A DNA stretch of 5,129 nt, taken from assembly GCF_000721935.1 (NCBI RefSeq), contig NZ_KL585405.1, positions 8,385 through 13,513 on the forward strand. Direction: 5' to 3'. Below the pieces are notes generated by a model, which was not told the DNA's origin, made no database searches, and was given only the letters and a program-made list of their open reading frames with translations. Of the stretch, positions 1,859 to 5,129 are shown piece after piece (position 1 is the first letter of the stretch; the number at the start of each line of letters is the position of its first letter). Source of the DNA: Streptomyces sp. NRRL WC-3549. Its GTDB lineage: Bacteria; Actinomycetota; Actinomycetes; Streptomycetales; Streptomycetaceae. Position numbers and translations under genes: made by a program.

Positions 1859-3713
1859 CCGTCGACAGGGCGGCCACGGACGGGCGGTGCGGGTGTCCGC
1901 GGTGCTCGGCTGCGCCGTCGTGGTGCTCGCGGGGTGCGGAGCGATGCCGGACACCGGTGAGGTCAAGGCGGTGGAGGCCTCACGGGCCGGTGACGCCCAG
2001 GTGCAGGTGTACGCGGTGCCGCCGAGGGAGGGCGCCTCGCCCCTGGAGGTCGTCGACGGTTTCCTGGAGTCGATGACGAGCGACGACCCCGGTTTCCGGA
2101 CCACGCGCACGTATCTGACCAAGCAGGCGGCGCGTACCTGGAAGCCGAGTGAGGGCACCACGGTGCTCGCGAAGGCGCCCAACCGCAACGGACCCGTGTT
2201 CCACGACGAGGAGCGCAGGGCCAGCGAGACCACGTACACGCTGACCGGTGAACAGGTGGCGGCGGTCGACGCGCAGAGCTCCTACCGGCCGCTCGCGCCG
2301 ACCGACTACTCCCGGGGGCTGCACCTGGTGCGGGAGAAGGGCGCGGACGGCAAGCAGGAGTGGCGCATCGATGTGGTGCCCGACGGCCTGGTGCTGGGGC
2401 AGTCCGACTTCAGGCGGCTGTACCGGCCGGTGAACAAGTACTACTTCGCGGCCGGGCGGTCGGGGAGCGGGCCGGCGCTGGTCGCCGACCCCGTCTACGT
2501 ACGCAACCGGACGGACCCGGTGACACGGATGGACACCGCCGCCCAGACGCTGCGCACGCTCCTGGAGGGCCCCTCCAACTGGTTGCGGCCGGTCGTCGAG
2601 ACGAGCTTTCCCGCCGGGACGACGCTCAGGAAGGGTGACATCACGCTGGCGCCCGACGACCAGAACGTGTTGAAGGTCCGGCTGAGCAAGCAGGCGGACA
2701 AGGCGGGGCCGCATGAGTGCCGGATGATGGCCGCCCAGGTGCTGTTCACCCTGCGGGACCTCACGTCCGCCCGGGTCGGCCAGGTCGAGCTGCAGGGCGA
2801 GCAGGGTCCGTTGTGTTCGCTCGGGGCCGACGACTCCGAGGAGTTCGAGGGGGACAGCGGTTCCGGGGCCCCCGACAGCCAGTACTTCGTCGATGACAAG
2901 GGGCGTGTGCAGCGGATCCCGGCGGGCAGCAAGGGCCTCGGTGATCCGGATCCGGTGCCCGGTCCGCTCGGTGCCGGGACGGTGGCGATGAGCGCCGTCG
3001 GTGTCTCCCGGGACGAGCAGCAGGGCGCCGCGGTGTCGGTGGACCAGCGGCACCTCTACGTCTGCTCCCTGGTGTCGGACGGCGAGGCGCCCGCCCCCGT
3101 CGTGACCAGTCGGGCCGGGAAGGCCGAGGACCGGCTCTCCACGCCGAGCTGGGACGGCCGGGGGGATCTGTGGGTCGCCGACCGGGACCCCTCCGGTCCT
3201 CGGCTGCTGCGGCTCGTGGGCGGTGAGGGCGAGTCTCAGGAGGTGGCGGTCCCGGACCTGGGCGAGGGCCGGATCGAGGCGTTGCGGCTGTCGGCCGACG
3301 GGGTGCGGATCGCCCTGAGGGTGGCCGAGGGCGATCACACGACCCTGCGGATCGGGCGTGTGGAACGCCATGGCTCGGGTGACGCGGAGCGGGTCTCCGT
3401 GGAGGACCTGCGCACCGCGGCGCCGCAGCTGACCGATGTGACCGCCGTGTCCTGGTCCGGCCGCAGCCGCCTCGTGGTGGTGGGCAAGGAGGAGGGCGGG
3501 GTGCAGCAGGTGCGCTACGTACAGGCGGACGGCTCCACGTCGTCCTCCGGTGTGCTGCCCGGGGTGAACCAGGTGACCGCCGTCGCGGCGGCGGACGACG
3601 AGCAGTTGCCGCTGATGGCGGACACGGAGAGCGACGGAATAGTGAAGCTGTCGCCCGGGGACAACTGGCAGACGGTCCTCAAGGAGGGTTCGTCGCTTGT
3701 CTATCCCGGCTGA
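1848..3713 (+). CDS. lpqB: LpqB lipoprotein, GerMN plus beta-propeller domains
   Basis: Envelope lipoprotein of 621 residues, partner of the MtrAB system; in mycobacteria LpqB interacts with the extracytoplasmic part of MtrB and modulates MtrA phosphorylation. Seen: a basic n-region (Arg5, Arg6, Arg12, Arg15), a hydrophobic segment about 16-27, and lipobox LAGC with the lipidated Cys at residue 30, so the mature protein should be anchored to the outer face of the membrane. An N-terminal LpqB domain follows. A GerMN domain is at about 190-325 (starts near YRPVNKYYF, includes LLEGPSNWLRPVVETSFPAG). The C-terminal part, about 345-621, has repeated beta-strand patterns of the LpqB propeller (for example LSTPSWDGRGDLWVADRD and LRLSADGVRIALRV). 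Length is normal for the family. The GTG start is chosen from the AGGAGG nine bases upstream; it overlaps the mtrB stop by 11 bp, suggesting translational coupling. No defect seen. Confidence 0.95.
   Translation: MDTDRRQGGHGRAVRVSAVLGCAVVVLAGCGAMPDTGEVKAVEASRAGDAQVQVYAVPPREGASPLEVVDGFLESMTSDDPGFRTTRTYLTKQAARTWKPSEGTTVLAKAPNRNGPVFHDEERRASETTYTLTGEQVAAVDAQSSYRPLAPTDYSRGLHLVREKGADGKQEWRIDVVPDGLVLGQSDFRRLYRPVNKYYFAAGRSGSGPALVADPVYVRNRTDPVTRMDTAAQTLRTLLEGPSNWLRPVVETSFPAGTTLRKGDITLAPDDQNVLKVRLSKQADKAGPHECRMMAAQVLFTLRDLTSARVGQVELQGEQGPLCSLGADDSEEFEGDSGSGAPDSQYFVDDKGRVQRIPAGSKGLGDPDPVPGPLGAGTVAMSAVGVSRDEQQGAAVSVDQRHLYVCSLVSDGEAPAPVVTSRAGKAEDRLSTPSWDGRGDLWVADRDPSGPRLLRLVGGEGESQEVAVPDLGEGRIEALRLSADGVRIALRVAEGDHTTLRIGRVERHGSGDAERVSVEDLRTAAPQLTDVTAVSWSGRSRLVVVGKEEGGVQQVRYVQADGSTSSSGVLPGVNQVTAVAAADDEQLPLMADTESDGIVKLSPGDNWQTVLKEGSSLVYPG
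3681..3688 (+). promoter_or_regulatory. Strong Shine-Dalgarno-like AAGGAGGG before an alternative comF start
   Basis: AAGGAGGG lies in the last codons of lpqB, 8 nt ahead of TTG 3697, which is in frame with the comF N-terminal half. If used, ComF would gain 42 Arg-rich residues and the DnaA-box repeat would be coding. The same bases encode Lys-Glu-Gly near the LpqB C-terminus, so the match may be incidental. Confidence 0.35.
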
Positions 3714-3716
3714 CCA

Positions 3717-3752
3717 CCGGGTCGCCCGGCGACGGGCCGTCCGTCCGGCCCG
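3717..3752 (+). terminator. Two tandem GC-rich hairpins after lpqB (possible terminator)
   Basis: Directly behind the lpqB stop are two perfect dyads. The first is CCGGG(3717-3721)-tcg-CCCGG(3725-3729). The second is CGGGCCG(3733-3739)-tccgtc-CGGCCCG(3746-3752). Neither is followed by a T-run, so they are not classic intrinsic terminators. In Streptomyces, terminators without a clear T-run are common, so these may end or attenuate the mtrB-lpqB transcript before comF. Such dyads also arise by chance in GC-rich DNA. Confidence 0.35.
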
Positions 3753-3757
3753 CCCCG

Positions 3758-3786
3758 GCGTTGTCCACAGGGCGTTGTCCACAGGG
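3758..3786 (+). repeat. Tandem 14-bp repeat carrying two DnaA boxes
   Basis: The unit GCGTTGTCCACAGG occurs twice in direct tandem with a 14-bp period, followed by extra Gs. Each unit contains TTGTCCACA (3761-3769 and 3775-3783), which is exactly the preferred DnaA box of Streptomyces oriC. The pair lies in the 109-bp gap between lpqB and the preferred comF start. Both boxes have the same orientation, a little more than one helical turn apart, so two DnaA protomers could bind side by side. Box identity is seen directly; binding is inferred. The gap has no other recognisable origin features, so it is not oriC. Confidence 0.65.
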
Positions 3787-3822
3787 GTGGTCCGGTTCCG
3801 GCGGCACCTGCACAGTGGAGAC

Positions 3823-4484
3823 GTGCGCGGATGGTGGCGGGAGGTCACGGGACTGGTTCTGCCTGCGGCCTGTGGCGGCTGCGGCAGACCTCGTACGCAG
3901 TTGTGCGGGGAGTGCGCGGCGGAGCTGGGGTCCAGGCCGTCACGGGTGCGGCCGACGCCGGAGCCGGAGGGGCTCCCGGCCGTGTATGCCGCCGCTCCGT
4001 ACGAGAACGCGGTGCGGGCGGTGCTGCTGGCCCACAAGGAGCGTGGGGCGCTCGGCCTCGTGGGCGCGCTCGGCGGGGCGCTGGCGGGCGCCGTGCGGGA
4101 GGGGGCGGGCCGACTGCGCGGTGAGGGACCGCTGCTGCTCGTGCCGATGCCGTCGCCGCCGCGGCGGCGCTGAGGCGCGCGGGTGTTCCGGCCCGGGCGC
4201 CGGCGGTGCTGCGGCATCGGCGTCCGGTGGCCGACCAGGCCGGGCTGGGAGCCAGGGCTCGGCAGGAGAACCTGGCGGGTGCCCTGGAGGTGGCGGCCCG
4301 GGGCAGGCCGTTGCTGAGCGGTGGCCGGGTGGTGCTCGTGGACGACCTGCTGACGACCGGGGCCACCCTCGCCGAGGCGGCGCGGGCGGTGCGTACAGGA
4401 TGGCCCGTCGGCGGCGGAGTCGCAGCTCTGGGAGCCGCGGTGATCGCGGCATCTCCCTCTGCTTTCGAAATAAACCGGAACTGA
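3823..4484 (+). pseudogene. comF: ComF/GntX-family phosphoribosyltransferase, frameshifted by internal deletion
   Basis: ComF-family protein (competence / DNA-utilisation related PRTase fold; biochemical role in Streptomyces unknown). The N-terminal half is in the frame of 3823 and stops at TGA 4171-4173. It starts VRGWWREVTGLVLP and has a zinc ribbon with Cys17, Cys20, Cys28 and Cys31, then the conserved YAAPYENAVRAVLLAHKERG and LLLVPMPS. The C-terminal half is in the frame shifted by -1 and contains LRRAGVPARAPAVLRHRRPVADQ, RQENLAGAL, the PRPP-binding loop VVLVDDLLTTGATL, and the end SAFEINRN, stopping at 4484. Between VPMPS and the second half the family normally has about 14-18 more residues including an R-x-RG motif; these are absent in every frame. 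A loss of about 40-55 bp (3n+1) explains both the gap and the frame change. GTG 3823 is chosen because the family motif begins here, though its GGAG is only 2 nt away. A TTG at 3697 with AAGGAGGG eight bases upstream is an alternative start overlapping lpqB. A sequencing or assembly error is a real alternative to a true pseudogene. Confidence 0.8.
4154..4169. repeat. Perfect 16-bp palindrome at the comF break
   Basis: CGCCGCCG followed directly by its reverse complement CGGCGGCG, with no loop. It sits exactly where the two comF reading frames meet, immediately before the premature TGA. Such a GC palindrome could promote a deletion during replication, could be created by a deletion joining two GC repeats, or could cause polymerase or sequencing errors. 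Confidence 0.7.
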
Positions 4485-4502
4485 CAGAAAATTTTCATCG
4501 TT
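4477..4502 (+). promoter_or_regulatory. ECF-sigma-like promoter for the hpf leader
   Basis: GGAAC (4477-4481), an 18-nt spacer, then GTT (4500-4502) matches the general form of Streptomyces ECF sigma promoters (SigE sites use a GGAAC -35; SigR sites a GGAAT -35 and GTT -10). The spacer contains GAAAATTTTC (4487-4496), strikingly A/T-rich for this genome, as is common in ECF promoter spacers. The -35 lies in the last codons of comF (Arg-Asn-stop). Transcription would begin near 4508-4511 and give a leader of about 300 nt before hpf. The sigma factor cannot be named from sequence alone. Confidence 0.45.
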
Positions 4503-4507
4503 GCAGG

Positions 4508-4730
4508 TGGTGCGTGGGTAAAGGGACCTGATCGGAGGTACGCACGAGTAGCGGGTGCCGATCCAGCGGCGGGCAGGCTATGTTCGGTTGTGAGAGACGG
4601 TGAATGCCGGATCTCGACGAATGCGCCTCCAGGTTTCGGGCAGGTAACCAGCGAAGGCCGGACGTACCGAAAGCGGTGGGGCGTAGACCTCGCCGGTGGA
4701 GGAGGAGGTGGAAGTCACCGAGTCCGCGGC
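4508..4730 (+). ncRNA. Structured hpf leader, candidate raiA-motif noncoding RNA
   Basis: This part of the gap shows no convincing coding frame and is richer in A and T than the genes around it. It holds several small stems: GATCGG(4530-4535) with CCGATC(4558-4563), inside it CGC(4541-4543)/GCG(4551-4553); GCCT(4625-4628)+GGTT(4632-4635) with AACC(4646-4649)+AGGC(4655-4658); ACCG(4666-4669)-aaag-CGGT(4674-4677); and CGGTG(4694-4698) with CACCG(4716-4720), the last enclosing a GGAGGAGGAGG run. GGTACG(4537-4542) can also pair at long range with CGTACC(4663-4668), competing with the third stem. The known raiA-motif RNA, about 200 nt with a complex fold, is found upstream of raiA/hpf genes in Firmicutes and Actinobacteria, so position, size and complexity fit. 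The assignment rests on location and stems, not on a recalled consensus. Ends are approximate: the 5' end is from the predicted promoter, the 3' end is set after the last stem. Confidence 0.55.
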
Positions 4731-4765
4731 TCCGGCGATCACCGGGGCCTGGTGCAAAAGGGAGA

Positions 4766-4789
4766 CGCTCCGCACTCTGAGGCGGAGCG
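4766..4789 (+). promoter_or_regulatory. Perfect hairpin just upstream of the hpf ribosome binding site
   Basis: CGCTCCGC (4766-4773), loop actctgag, GCGGAGCG (4782-4789): an 8-bp perfect stem ending 10 nt before the hpf Shine-Dalgarno. Its left arm contains CTCCG, which could instead pair with the Shine-Dalgarno CGGAG at 4799-4803, so two mutually exclusive structures are possible. No T-run follows, so a classic intrinsic terminator is unlikely, but a cis-regulatory hairpin, processing site or Streptomyces-type terminator separating the leader RNA from hpf would all fit. Confidence 0.5.
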
Positions 4790-4798
4790 ATCCGGGAA

Positions 4799-4803
4799 CG
4801 GAG
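4799..4803 (+). promoter_or_regulatory. hpf ribosome binding site
   Basis: CGGAG 6 nt before GTG 4810. It sits in a small dyad GAAC(4796-4799)-GGA-GTTC(4803-4806) and can also pair with the left arm of the upstream hairpin. It supports GTG 4810 as the main start over in-frame GTGs at 4708 and 4696. Confidence 0.7.
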
Positions 4804-4809
4804 TTCTGC

Positions 4810-5129
4810 GTGGACATCGTCGTCAAGGGCCGCAAGACCGAGGTGCCCGAGCGGTTCCGGAAGCACGTGGCCGAGAAGCTGAAGCTGGACAAGATCCAGA
4901 AGTTCGACGGCAAGGTGATGAGCCTGGACGTCGAGGTGTCCAAGGAGCCCAACCCCCGTCAGGCCGACCGTGCAGCAAGGGTGGAGATCACGCTTCGTTC
5001 GCGTGGACCGGTCATCAGGGCGGAAGCGGCGGCAGGCGACCCGTACGCAGCGCTGGACCTGGCGACCGACAAGCTGGACACACAGCTGCGCAAGGAGCAC
5101 GACAAGCGCTACAGCCGCCGTGGCAGCGG
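4810..5129 (+). CDS. hpf: Ribosome hibernation-promoting factor, long form (3' partial)
   Basis: HPF/RaiA (S30AE/YfiA family): binds the 30S decoding region in non-growing cells, blocking translation; long forms also dimerise 70S ribosomes into 100S through a C-terminal domain. The window contains 106 complete codons, covering essentially the whole N-terminal S30AE domain: VDIVVKGRKTEVPERFRKHV at the start, LDVEVSKEPNPRQADR, VEITLRSRGPVIRAEA, then DPYAALDLATDKLDTQLRK from residue 77. This gives the beta-alpha-beta-beta-beta-alpha pattern with abundant Lys/Arg for rRNA contact. The frame is still open at the right edge, so the dimerisation domain lies beyond the window; that this is the long form is known from actinobacterial homologues, not seen here. 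GTG 4810 is preferred because homologues begin at this MDIVVKGRK-like sequence and it has its own Shine-Dalgarno. It is preceded by a long structured leader, suggesting its own promoter rather than read-through from comF. Confidence 0.93.
   Translation, partial: MDIVVKGRKTEVPERFRKHVAEKLKLDKIQKFDGKVMSLDVEVSKEPNPRQADRAARVEITLRSRGPVIRAEAAAGDPYAALDLATDKLDTQLRKEHDKRYSRRGS

Follow-up and report, generated by a model that had tools for sequence, protein, structure and literature searches.

Between comF and hpf, the gene of the ribosome hibernation promoting factor, lies a gap whose 3′ half holds a conserved non-coding fold consisting of the raiA-hairpin RNA and its flanks. This fold runs into the ribosome-binding site of hpf and likely controls hpf translation in cis, a reading to which a probability of roughly 0.55 is assigned. 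Judged by comparison of related sequences, the hpf leader is real and conserved, contains a known Rfam hairpin, exceeds the Rfam element in size, and lacks the raiA motif. The window referred to below is the whole stretch of 5,129 nucleotides that was analysed.

The comF-hpf gap and its conserved fold

The reading frames of the window are presumably mtrB, lpqB (to 3713), comF (to 4484) and hpf (from the GTG at 4810). Relatives of hpf were present in 24 of 24 genomes. A survey of Streptomyces reports that HPF is syntenic with mtrA, mtrB and secA (PMC13118837). The gap between the end of the comF frame at 4484 and the hpf start covers 4485–4809, and its 325 nt confirm the gap described in an earlier note on this DNA. 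In the window, comF is split into two frames (3697–4173 and 4206–4484). Around 4150–4170, about 55 bases are missing relative to the related locus L002, representing either a real deletion or a fault of the draft assembly.

Table 1. Features of the hpf leader and its neighbouring genes, in window coordinates.
Feature	Position	Strand	Remarks
comF 3′ part, upstream neighbour of hpf	4206–4484	+	reading frame
Predicted promoter P1: ECF-type pair GGAAC-N18-GTT, resembling sigma-R/sigma-E promoters	4477–4502	+	upstream of 4508
GGAGGTA, conserved block between the boxes of P1 and P2	4534–4540	+	104/112 Streptomyces leaders (6.6 expected)
Second predicted promoter P2: TATGTT as likely -10 box	4579–4584	+	predicted start near 4590
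Variable linker including CGTACC	4586–4672	+	mostly absent in L018, L044 and L067 (alignment)
Hairpin P0	4673–4696	+	6/10 pairs double-changed, 77.3% of cells paired; moderate support
Purine tract GGAGGAGGAGGTG, complementary to the 16S rRNA 3′ end (orphan Shine-Dalgarno-like site)	4698–4710	+	
raiA-hairpin RNA (RF03059): hairpin P3 and outer CACC/GGUG stem	4716–4763	+	71.2 bits, E 1.2e-11
Hairpin P4, absent from the Rfam model	4761–4793	+	inner stem: 5/6 pairs double-changed
P5, possible small hairpin GGAAC-GGA-GUUCU with the hpf Shine-Dalgarno GGAG (4800–4803)	4795–4807	+	invariant in 77/77
hpf (ribosome hibernation promoting factor)	4810–5129	+	GTG start; gene cut by the window end

The hpf start was found in 79 of the 80 hpf loci collected, with L076 failing the start pattern. 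Alignment of the 79 gap sequences divides the gap into three zones, namely a promoter-like zone (4477–4590), a linker of variable length, and a conserved block of about 140 nt ending in the hpf start. The conserved RNA corresponds to this last block and comprises, in order, P0, the purine tract, the raiA-hairpin (P3), P4 and the ribosome-binding site of hpf (Table 1).

A cmscan search identified RF03059 as the sole Rfam family at its gathering threshold (43.7 bits) in the whole window, with a match spanning the full model from position 1 to 48. The leader thus shares with the raiA-hairpin both sequence and hairpin over the complete 48-position model, as well as the location upstream of hpf/raiA in Streptomyces. 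It differs from the Rfam family in that its conserved unit is larger, with P0, the purine tract and P4 flanking the Rfam element up to the hpf start. Rfam listed no known riboswitch family, either at gathering score across the window or at E ≤ 10 within 4400–4900.

For structural analysis, 109 leaders (107 distinct) were reduced to 78 at below 92% identity, and L044 was removed by hand as too diverged, leaving 77 Streptomyces leaders in alignment A1. RNAalifold returned the outer and inner stems of the raiA-hairpin, P4, and P5 at the Shine-Dalgarno sequence. The structure counted on A1 comprises 36 pairs, including P0, which was added by hand. Altogether 92.1% of its cells are paired, compared to 90.1% in shuffles and at most 54.5% when the structure is slid by 1 to 3 columns, a control over which it is favoured, as it was derived from the same alignment. 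Double changes amount to 77 cells (37 in shuffles) and 15 pairs (10.1 in shuffles), while further pair types show no clear excess, 33 of 500 shuffles being as high.

The check for covariation across Streptomyces suggested by the earlier note thus yielded compensatory changes in P3 and P4. In the inner stem of P3, 97.6% of cells are paired and 4 of 7 pairs are double-changed; the inner stem of P4 reaches 96.8% paired cells. Changes in the outer P3 stem occur on one side only. P5, which might sequester the Shine-Dalgarno sequence, shows no covariation in A1, being invariant, and a GAUC in place of GUUC breaks one of its sides in L150, L185 and L186. P0 is unrecognisable by eye in L067, L102 and L108. 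An alternative GGUG/CACC hairpin was considered as a clean switch and rejected, as covariation of this pairing was looked for and found absent; text-pattern pairing of columns 78/122 across the family gave mixed results.

A second alignment, A2, combined 10 hand-picked Streptomyces leaders with 24 of 29 diverged leaders from other genera, 34 in all. The other five (L150, L183, L185, L186 and L187) were excluded because by eye P4 is absent in them; their tail, like CAGYGCAAGGGA, directly adjoins the hpf site. RNAalifold again recovered P4 from A2 together with its outer stem, which also shows double changes; 4 of 12 pairs are double-changed. P4 looks like a GGGA-flanked insertion in L168–L182 and L184 when compared with the P4-less L150, L183 and L187, in which the tail GGGA meets the ribosome-binding site.

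Folding energies were compared with shuffles for 24 leaders, i.e., the window and every sixth other leader. The 150 nt before hpf fold better than shuffles (z -2.73 in the window, mean -2.12 in the 24 sampled leaders). The preceding 100 nt show no such advantage (z +1.34 for the window, -0.98 on average). A structured leader of about 300 nt at 4508–4809 had been claimed; the structure is found in its last 140 to 150 nt, whereas the whole 302 nt have no folding advantage over shuffles (z -1.07, with 13 of 100 equally stable). Approximately 165 of the 302 bases (4508–4672) consist of promoter-like region and variable linker. The longer predicted transcript part, 4590–4840, likewise folds no better than shuffles (z -1.23, 21 of 200 as good).

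Promoter-like boxes, purine tract and the coding reading

Counts of promoter boxes refer to 112 of 119 Streptomyces records, in which the window and L088 represent one genome counted twice, and to 15 of 21 records of other Streptomycetaceae. The pattern GGAAC-N15-18-CGTT occurs in 108 of the 112 Streptomyces leaders, with 0.8 expected from mononucleotide shuffles, and in 9 of the 15 others. The published sigma-R motif is GGAAT-N18-GTT (PMC2375139), from which the GGAAC-N18-GTT of the window differs by one base. The -35 element of sigma-E is reported to resemble GGAACTT (PMC10771440), and the -35 of the ECF-type pair in the window is similar. TATGTTC is present in 105/112 Streptomyces leaders (0.5 expected) and 13/15 of the others (0.1 expected). 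Transcription of the hpf leader probably proceeds from both predicted promoters, the ECF-type promoter at 4477–4502 and the TATGTT promoter at 4579–4584. The distance from TATGTT to hpf ranges from 148 to 287 nt in Streptomyces.

Between the promoter-like boxes (4503–4545), most species carry conserved CAGGT...ACCTG-like words in addition to GGAGGTA; the dyad is imperfect in the window. This block could be an operator or part of a longer transcript.

A long-range pairing of GGTACG with CGTACC had also been proposed. Both words are present in the window (4537–4542 and 4663–4668), and they occur together in only 7 of 112 Streptomyces leaders, two of which are the same genome. The pairing was rejected as not conserved. 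It looks accidental, because GGTACG lies in the conserved block upstream of TATGTT and CGTACC in the variable linker.

The purine tract was assessed in 135 of 140 records, L088 having been dropped as a duplicate and the others for pattern or length. The exact AGGAGGTG is found in 97 of 116 Streptomyces leaders and 15 of 19 other leaders. A looser purine tract is present in 113 of 116 and 19 of 19, respectively, and missing in L015, L031 and L144. In L144, the rule of taking the last GGAGG catches the upstream GGAGGTA block, and the tract numbers are therefore taken from a separate count.

Duplex energies were computed with what is assumed to be the sequence of the 16S rRNA 3′ end. The best anti-Shine-Dalgarno duplex 50 to 220 nt upstream of hpf reaches about -18 kcal/mol, compared to -12.8 (sd 2.2) in shuffled zones. 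The own site of hpf is weak (GGAG), with -8.8 kcal/mol in all 116 Streptomyces. The best upstream site binds stronger than this own site in 135 of 135 leaders; shuffled zones also outbind the own site, so that only the excess of the tract above their -12.8 is meaningful. In the median, the best upstream duplex ends at about -91 from hpf in Streptomyces and at about -140 in the other genera. A special accessibility of the tract was rejected, as the computed unpaired values for 105 leaders are no different for the tract (0.36), the hpf site (0.35) and the leader average (0.37).

A coding feature was also considered, in which hpf would extend further at its N-terminus or a short upstream frame would begin at the GTG in the tract. 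Consistent with this, the frame from the GTG at 4696 is open into hpf in the window, at least 40 in-frame codons are open upstream of hpf in most leaders, and 97 of 135 leaders have a GTG overlapping their last GGAGG. However, this GTG is in frame with hpf in only 14 of the 97. The distance from the tract to hpf, determined for 87 of 107 leaders with the tract pattern, leaves remainders of 0, 1 and 2 on division by three in 38, 14 and 35 cases, respectively, and in the tract-started frame changes fall 111, 96 and 48 times on codon positions 1, 2 and 3 (87 leaders). One-base indels are also tolerated in the hairpin loops. Start codons 4 to 12 nt past the last GGAGG were found in 9 of 135 leaders, in several of them since the last GGAGG falls in P3.

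The frame started from the tract was consequently rejected as coding, and the conserved leader is regarded as non-coding because the distance to hpf is out of phase and changes occur mainly at codon positions 1 and 2. A coding function is thus extremely improbable, and these comparisons show the purine tract to be a strong ribosome-binding sequence that is followed by no conserved reading frame. In L150, from another genus of the Streptomycetaceae, a start-stop pair ATGTGA directly follows the tract.

Distribution of the hairpin leader and the raiA motif

The raiA-hairpin is an Rfam entry with little literature, as judged by an open full-text search. A paper from 2017 reportedly described both the raiA motif and the raiA-hairpin families. 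RF03059 was detected in 34 of 40 Streptomyces genomes and in none of the 354 others searched in the class, taken here as the Actinomycetia. The 30 loci fetched from the 34 matches all have an hpf start downstream of the hairpin and on its strand (in L102 according to the alignment).

A model of the whole leader, R1, was built from A1 and extends this distribution. In the order, R1 matched 182 of 197 genomes at E ≤ 0.01, comprising 181 of 181 Streptomyces and G009 (E 0.0069); at the hpf locus of G009, R1 gives a single, weak match (E 0.21), located beyond the start of hpf. Among 101 Streptomycetaceae genomes, 67 were matched at E ≤ 0.1, i.e., 21 of 21 Streptomyces and 46 of 80 others. Counted from the rows, 33 of these 80 were matched at E ≤ 0.001. 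Twenty diverged R1 regions, hand-picked from the Streptomycetaceae matches, all run directly into hpf on the same strand. RF03059 was unreported at E ≤ 1 in the seven diverged leaders scanned (L168, L177, L181, L183, L185, L186 and L187).

In the class, R1 matched every one of the 40 Streptomyces genomes and 5 of the 354 others. The five matches are weak (E 2e-5 to 9e-4) and lie on different contigs from the raiA motif of the same genome. On the basis of these searches, there is no comparable leader match outside the Streptomycetaceae. Nine hpf loci of family f3 of the order (L151, L152, L154, L155, L158, L159, L160, L163 and L164) gave no raiA motif or raiA-hairpin at E ≤ 1 and only weak R1 matches, and seem to carry neither RNA before hpf.

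The earlier note had identified the leader as a candidate raiA motif RNA and proposed searching with both Rfam models. The raiA-hairpin model matched as listed in Table 1. The raiA motif (RF03072, cut-off 101.3 bits) had no match in 4400–4900 even at E ≤ 10, was absent from all 40 Streptomyces of the class draw, and was not found at E ≤ 1 in 20 related loci, so that the identity of the Streptomyces leader with the raiA motif was rejected. None of the 101 Streptomycetaceae genomes contained it above the cut-off, one match being weak.

The suggestion that the gap is a site of raiA RNAs holds as a statement on synteny. RF03072 occurs in 101 of 394 genomes of the class (101 of the 354 non-Streptomyces), distributed over 48 of 137 genera. 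Among the 30 best-scoring of these 101 loci plus L001, the raiA strand carries comF in 30 of 31, hpf in 24 of 31, and both in 23 of 31. The distance from the raiA motif to the first aligned hpf codon is 37 to 368 nt with a median of 62 (21 loci with complete sequence and hpf). In the order, 1 of 197 genomes contains RF03072, namely G002, which is outside the family and carries a full raiA motif in the comF-hpf slot (142.5 bits).

The shared slot, the complementary distribution and the full motif in G002 would fit an ancestral raiA motif RNA that was retained in the Streptomycetaceae and changed beyond recognition. This origin is nevertheless very improbable in view of the RF03072 searches described above, and R1 had no match at the raiA position on the raiA strand in the 31 raiA-motif loci. 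Furthermore, R1 folds into local hairpins in a row, in contrast to the raiA structure, for which eight helices are reported together with a three-way junction and two pseudoknots (PMC11751092). An R1 match between raiA and hpf in L128 (1366–1495, E 0.0004) lies on the opposite strand and is probably a chance match arising from GC-rich hairpins.

The hairpin leader and the raiA motif, also termed ModT RNA, thus have in common the position in the comF-hpf gap and the strand. They differ in that the leader lacks any sequence or covariance match to RF03072 and is a series of local hairpins, compared to a pseudoknotted RNA of about 210 nt. As far as the alignments indicate, the two share the slot in different lineages, and only the hairpin leader is built into the ribosome-binding site of hpf.

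Proposed control of hpf

Conservation of the leader is unbroken through the ribosome-binding site of hpf. The TGC of the hairpin tail is separated from the start of hpf by 54 to 57 nt in 89 of 106 leaders and by 54 to 73 nt in all of them, the tail having been sought only 40 to 80 nt upstream. A cis-acting hpf leader is considered likelier than an independent RNA because the fold continues into the hpf ribosome-binding site at this nearly fixed distance. Less weight is accordingly given to the original proposal, in which the RNA is independent and hpf depends on read-through. Evidence against the cis-leader includes P5, which never varies and is broken in three leaders, and the one-sided changes of the outer P3 stem, in addition to the Rfam type of RF03059, "Gene; sRNA". 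The unremarkable folding of 4590–4840, the average accessibility of tract and hpf site, the missing covariation of GGUG/CACC and the three Streptomyces leaders lacking the tract count against it as well.

The same Rfam type would suit a trans-acting sRNA, in which processing or termination ahead of hpf would free the raiA-hairpin region to act at other sites, as proposed for the raiA motif RNA, with hpf as a passenger. The raiA motif, which occupies this gap elsewhere in the class, is reported to be abundant in C. difficile and trans-acting in C. acetobutylicum (PMC11706538, PMC11477304). Such an sRNA is unlikely, since conservation continues past the hairpin through the ribosome-binding site and the element precedes hpf in the same orientation in all loci that were selected by the RNA (30 of 30 by RF03059, 20 of 20 by R1). 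For S. ambofaciens, moreover, the raiA-hairpin is listed with conserved cis-acting elements located in intracistronic sequences of operons (PMC8388888).

A further possibility is that P3 and P4 are processing hairpins for RNase III or RNase J, which would set the lifetime of the hpf mRNA without any sensing of ribosomes. Accumulation of 100S ribosomes is reported for rnc and rnj mutants of S. venezuelae (PMC12096830, PMC10126417). Yet neither report mentions hpf or describes its cleavage, and the conserved single-stranded tract, the tail GGGA and the ribosome-binding site would exceed the needs of a processing site. A pure RNase control site is therefore quite improbable.

For the cis-acting leader, the following mechanism is proposed. 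30S subunits would load on the purine tract as a standby site, approximately 100 nt upstream of hpf and farther in the other genera. The loaded subunits would then reach the weak GGAG site of hpf across the folded P3/P4 spacer, and hpf translation would be highest when idle subunits are plentiful. Cleavage of P3/P4 by RNase III may additionally set the level of hpf. The standby step is the least certain part of this proposal and remains doubtful.

In known standby sites, a distance of about 100 nt between tract and start is long by comparison. With ribosome standby sites and translational leaders of ribosome-related genes, as generally known, the hpf leader shares a strong upstream tract, a weak start and structure between the two; it differs in the length of this distance, and loading is here predicted from the sequence.

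In S. coelicolor, HPF (SCO3009) in ribosome fractions is reported to rise 3.0-fold with tetracycline (PMC7157823). In tetracycline-treated cells, ribosomal HPF was 7.6-fold higher in the wild type than in the wblC mutant, at an RNA-seq ratio of 1.0 (PMC7157823). A rise of HPF without a change in RNA could reflect post-transcriptional control; stronger ribosome binding would fit as well.

In its most far-reaching form, the cis-leader proposal would mean that the Streptomycetaceae swapped the raiA RNA for a ribosome-counting switch in the hpf mRNA, in which the orphan tract captures idle 30S subunits and hands them over P3/P4 to the weak start. This scenario is speculative and distinctly unlikely. 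If it were true, the output of the hibernation factor would be proportional to the number of ribosomes that need to be shelved.

By this analysis, the raiA-hairpin is tied to the hpf start site, enlarged to a leader of about 140 nt, and extended to other genera of the Streptomycetaceae. The raiA-hairpin and the raiA motif occur in the same gap in different lineages, with 0 of 40 Streptomyces containing RF03072 and 0 of 354 other genomes containing RF03059. Streptomyces may thus serve as a natural raiA-negative lineage for judging the role of raiA RNA. The leader opens simple experimental access to the switching of ribosome hibernation in Streptomyces.
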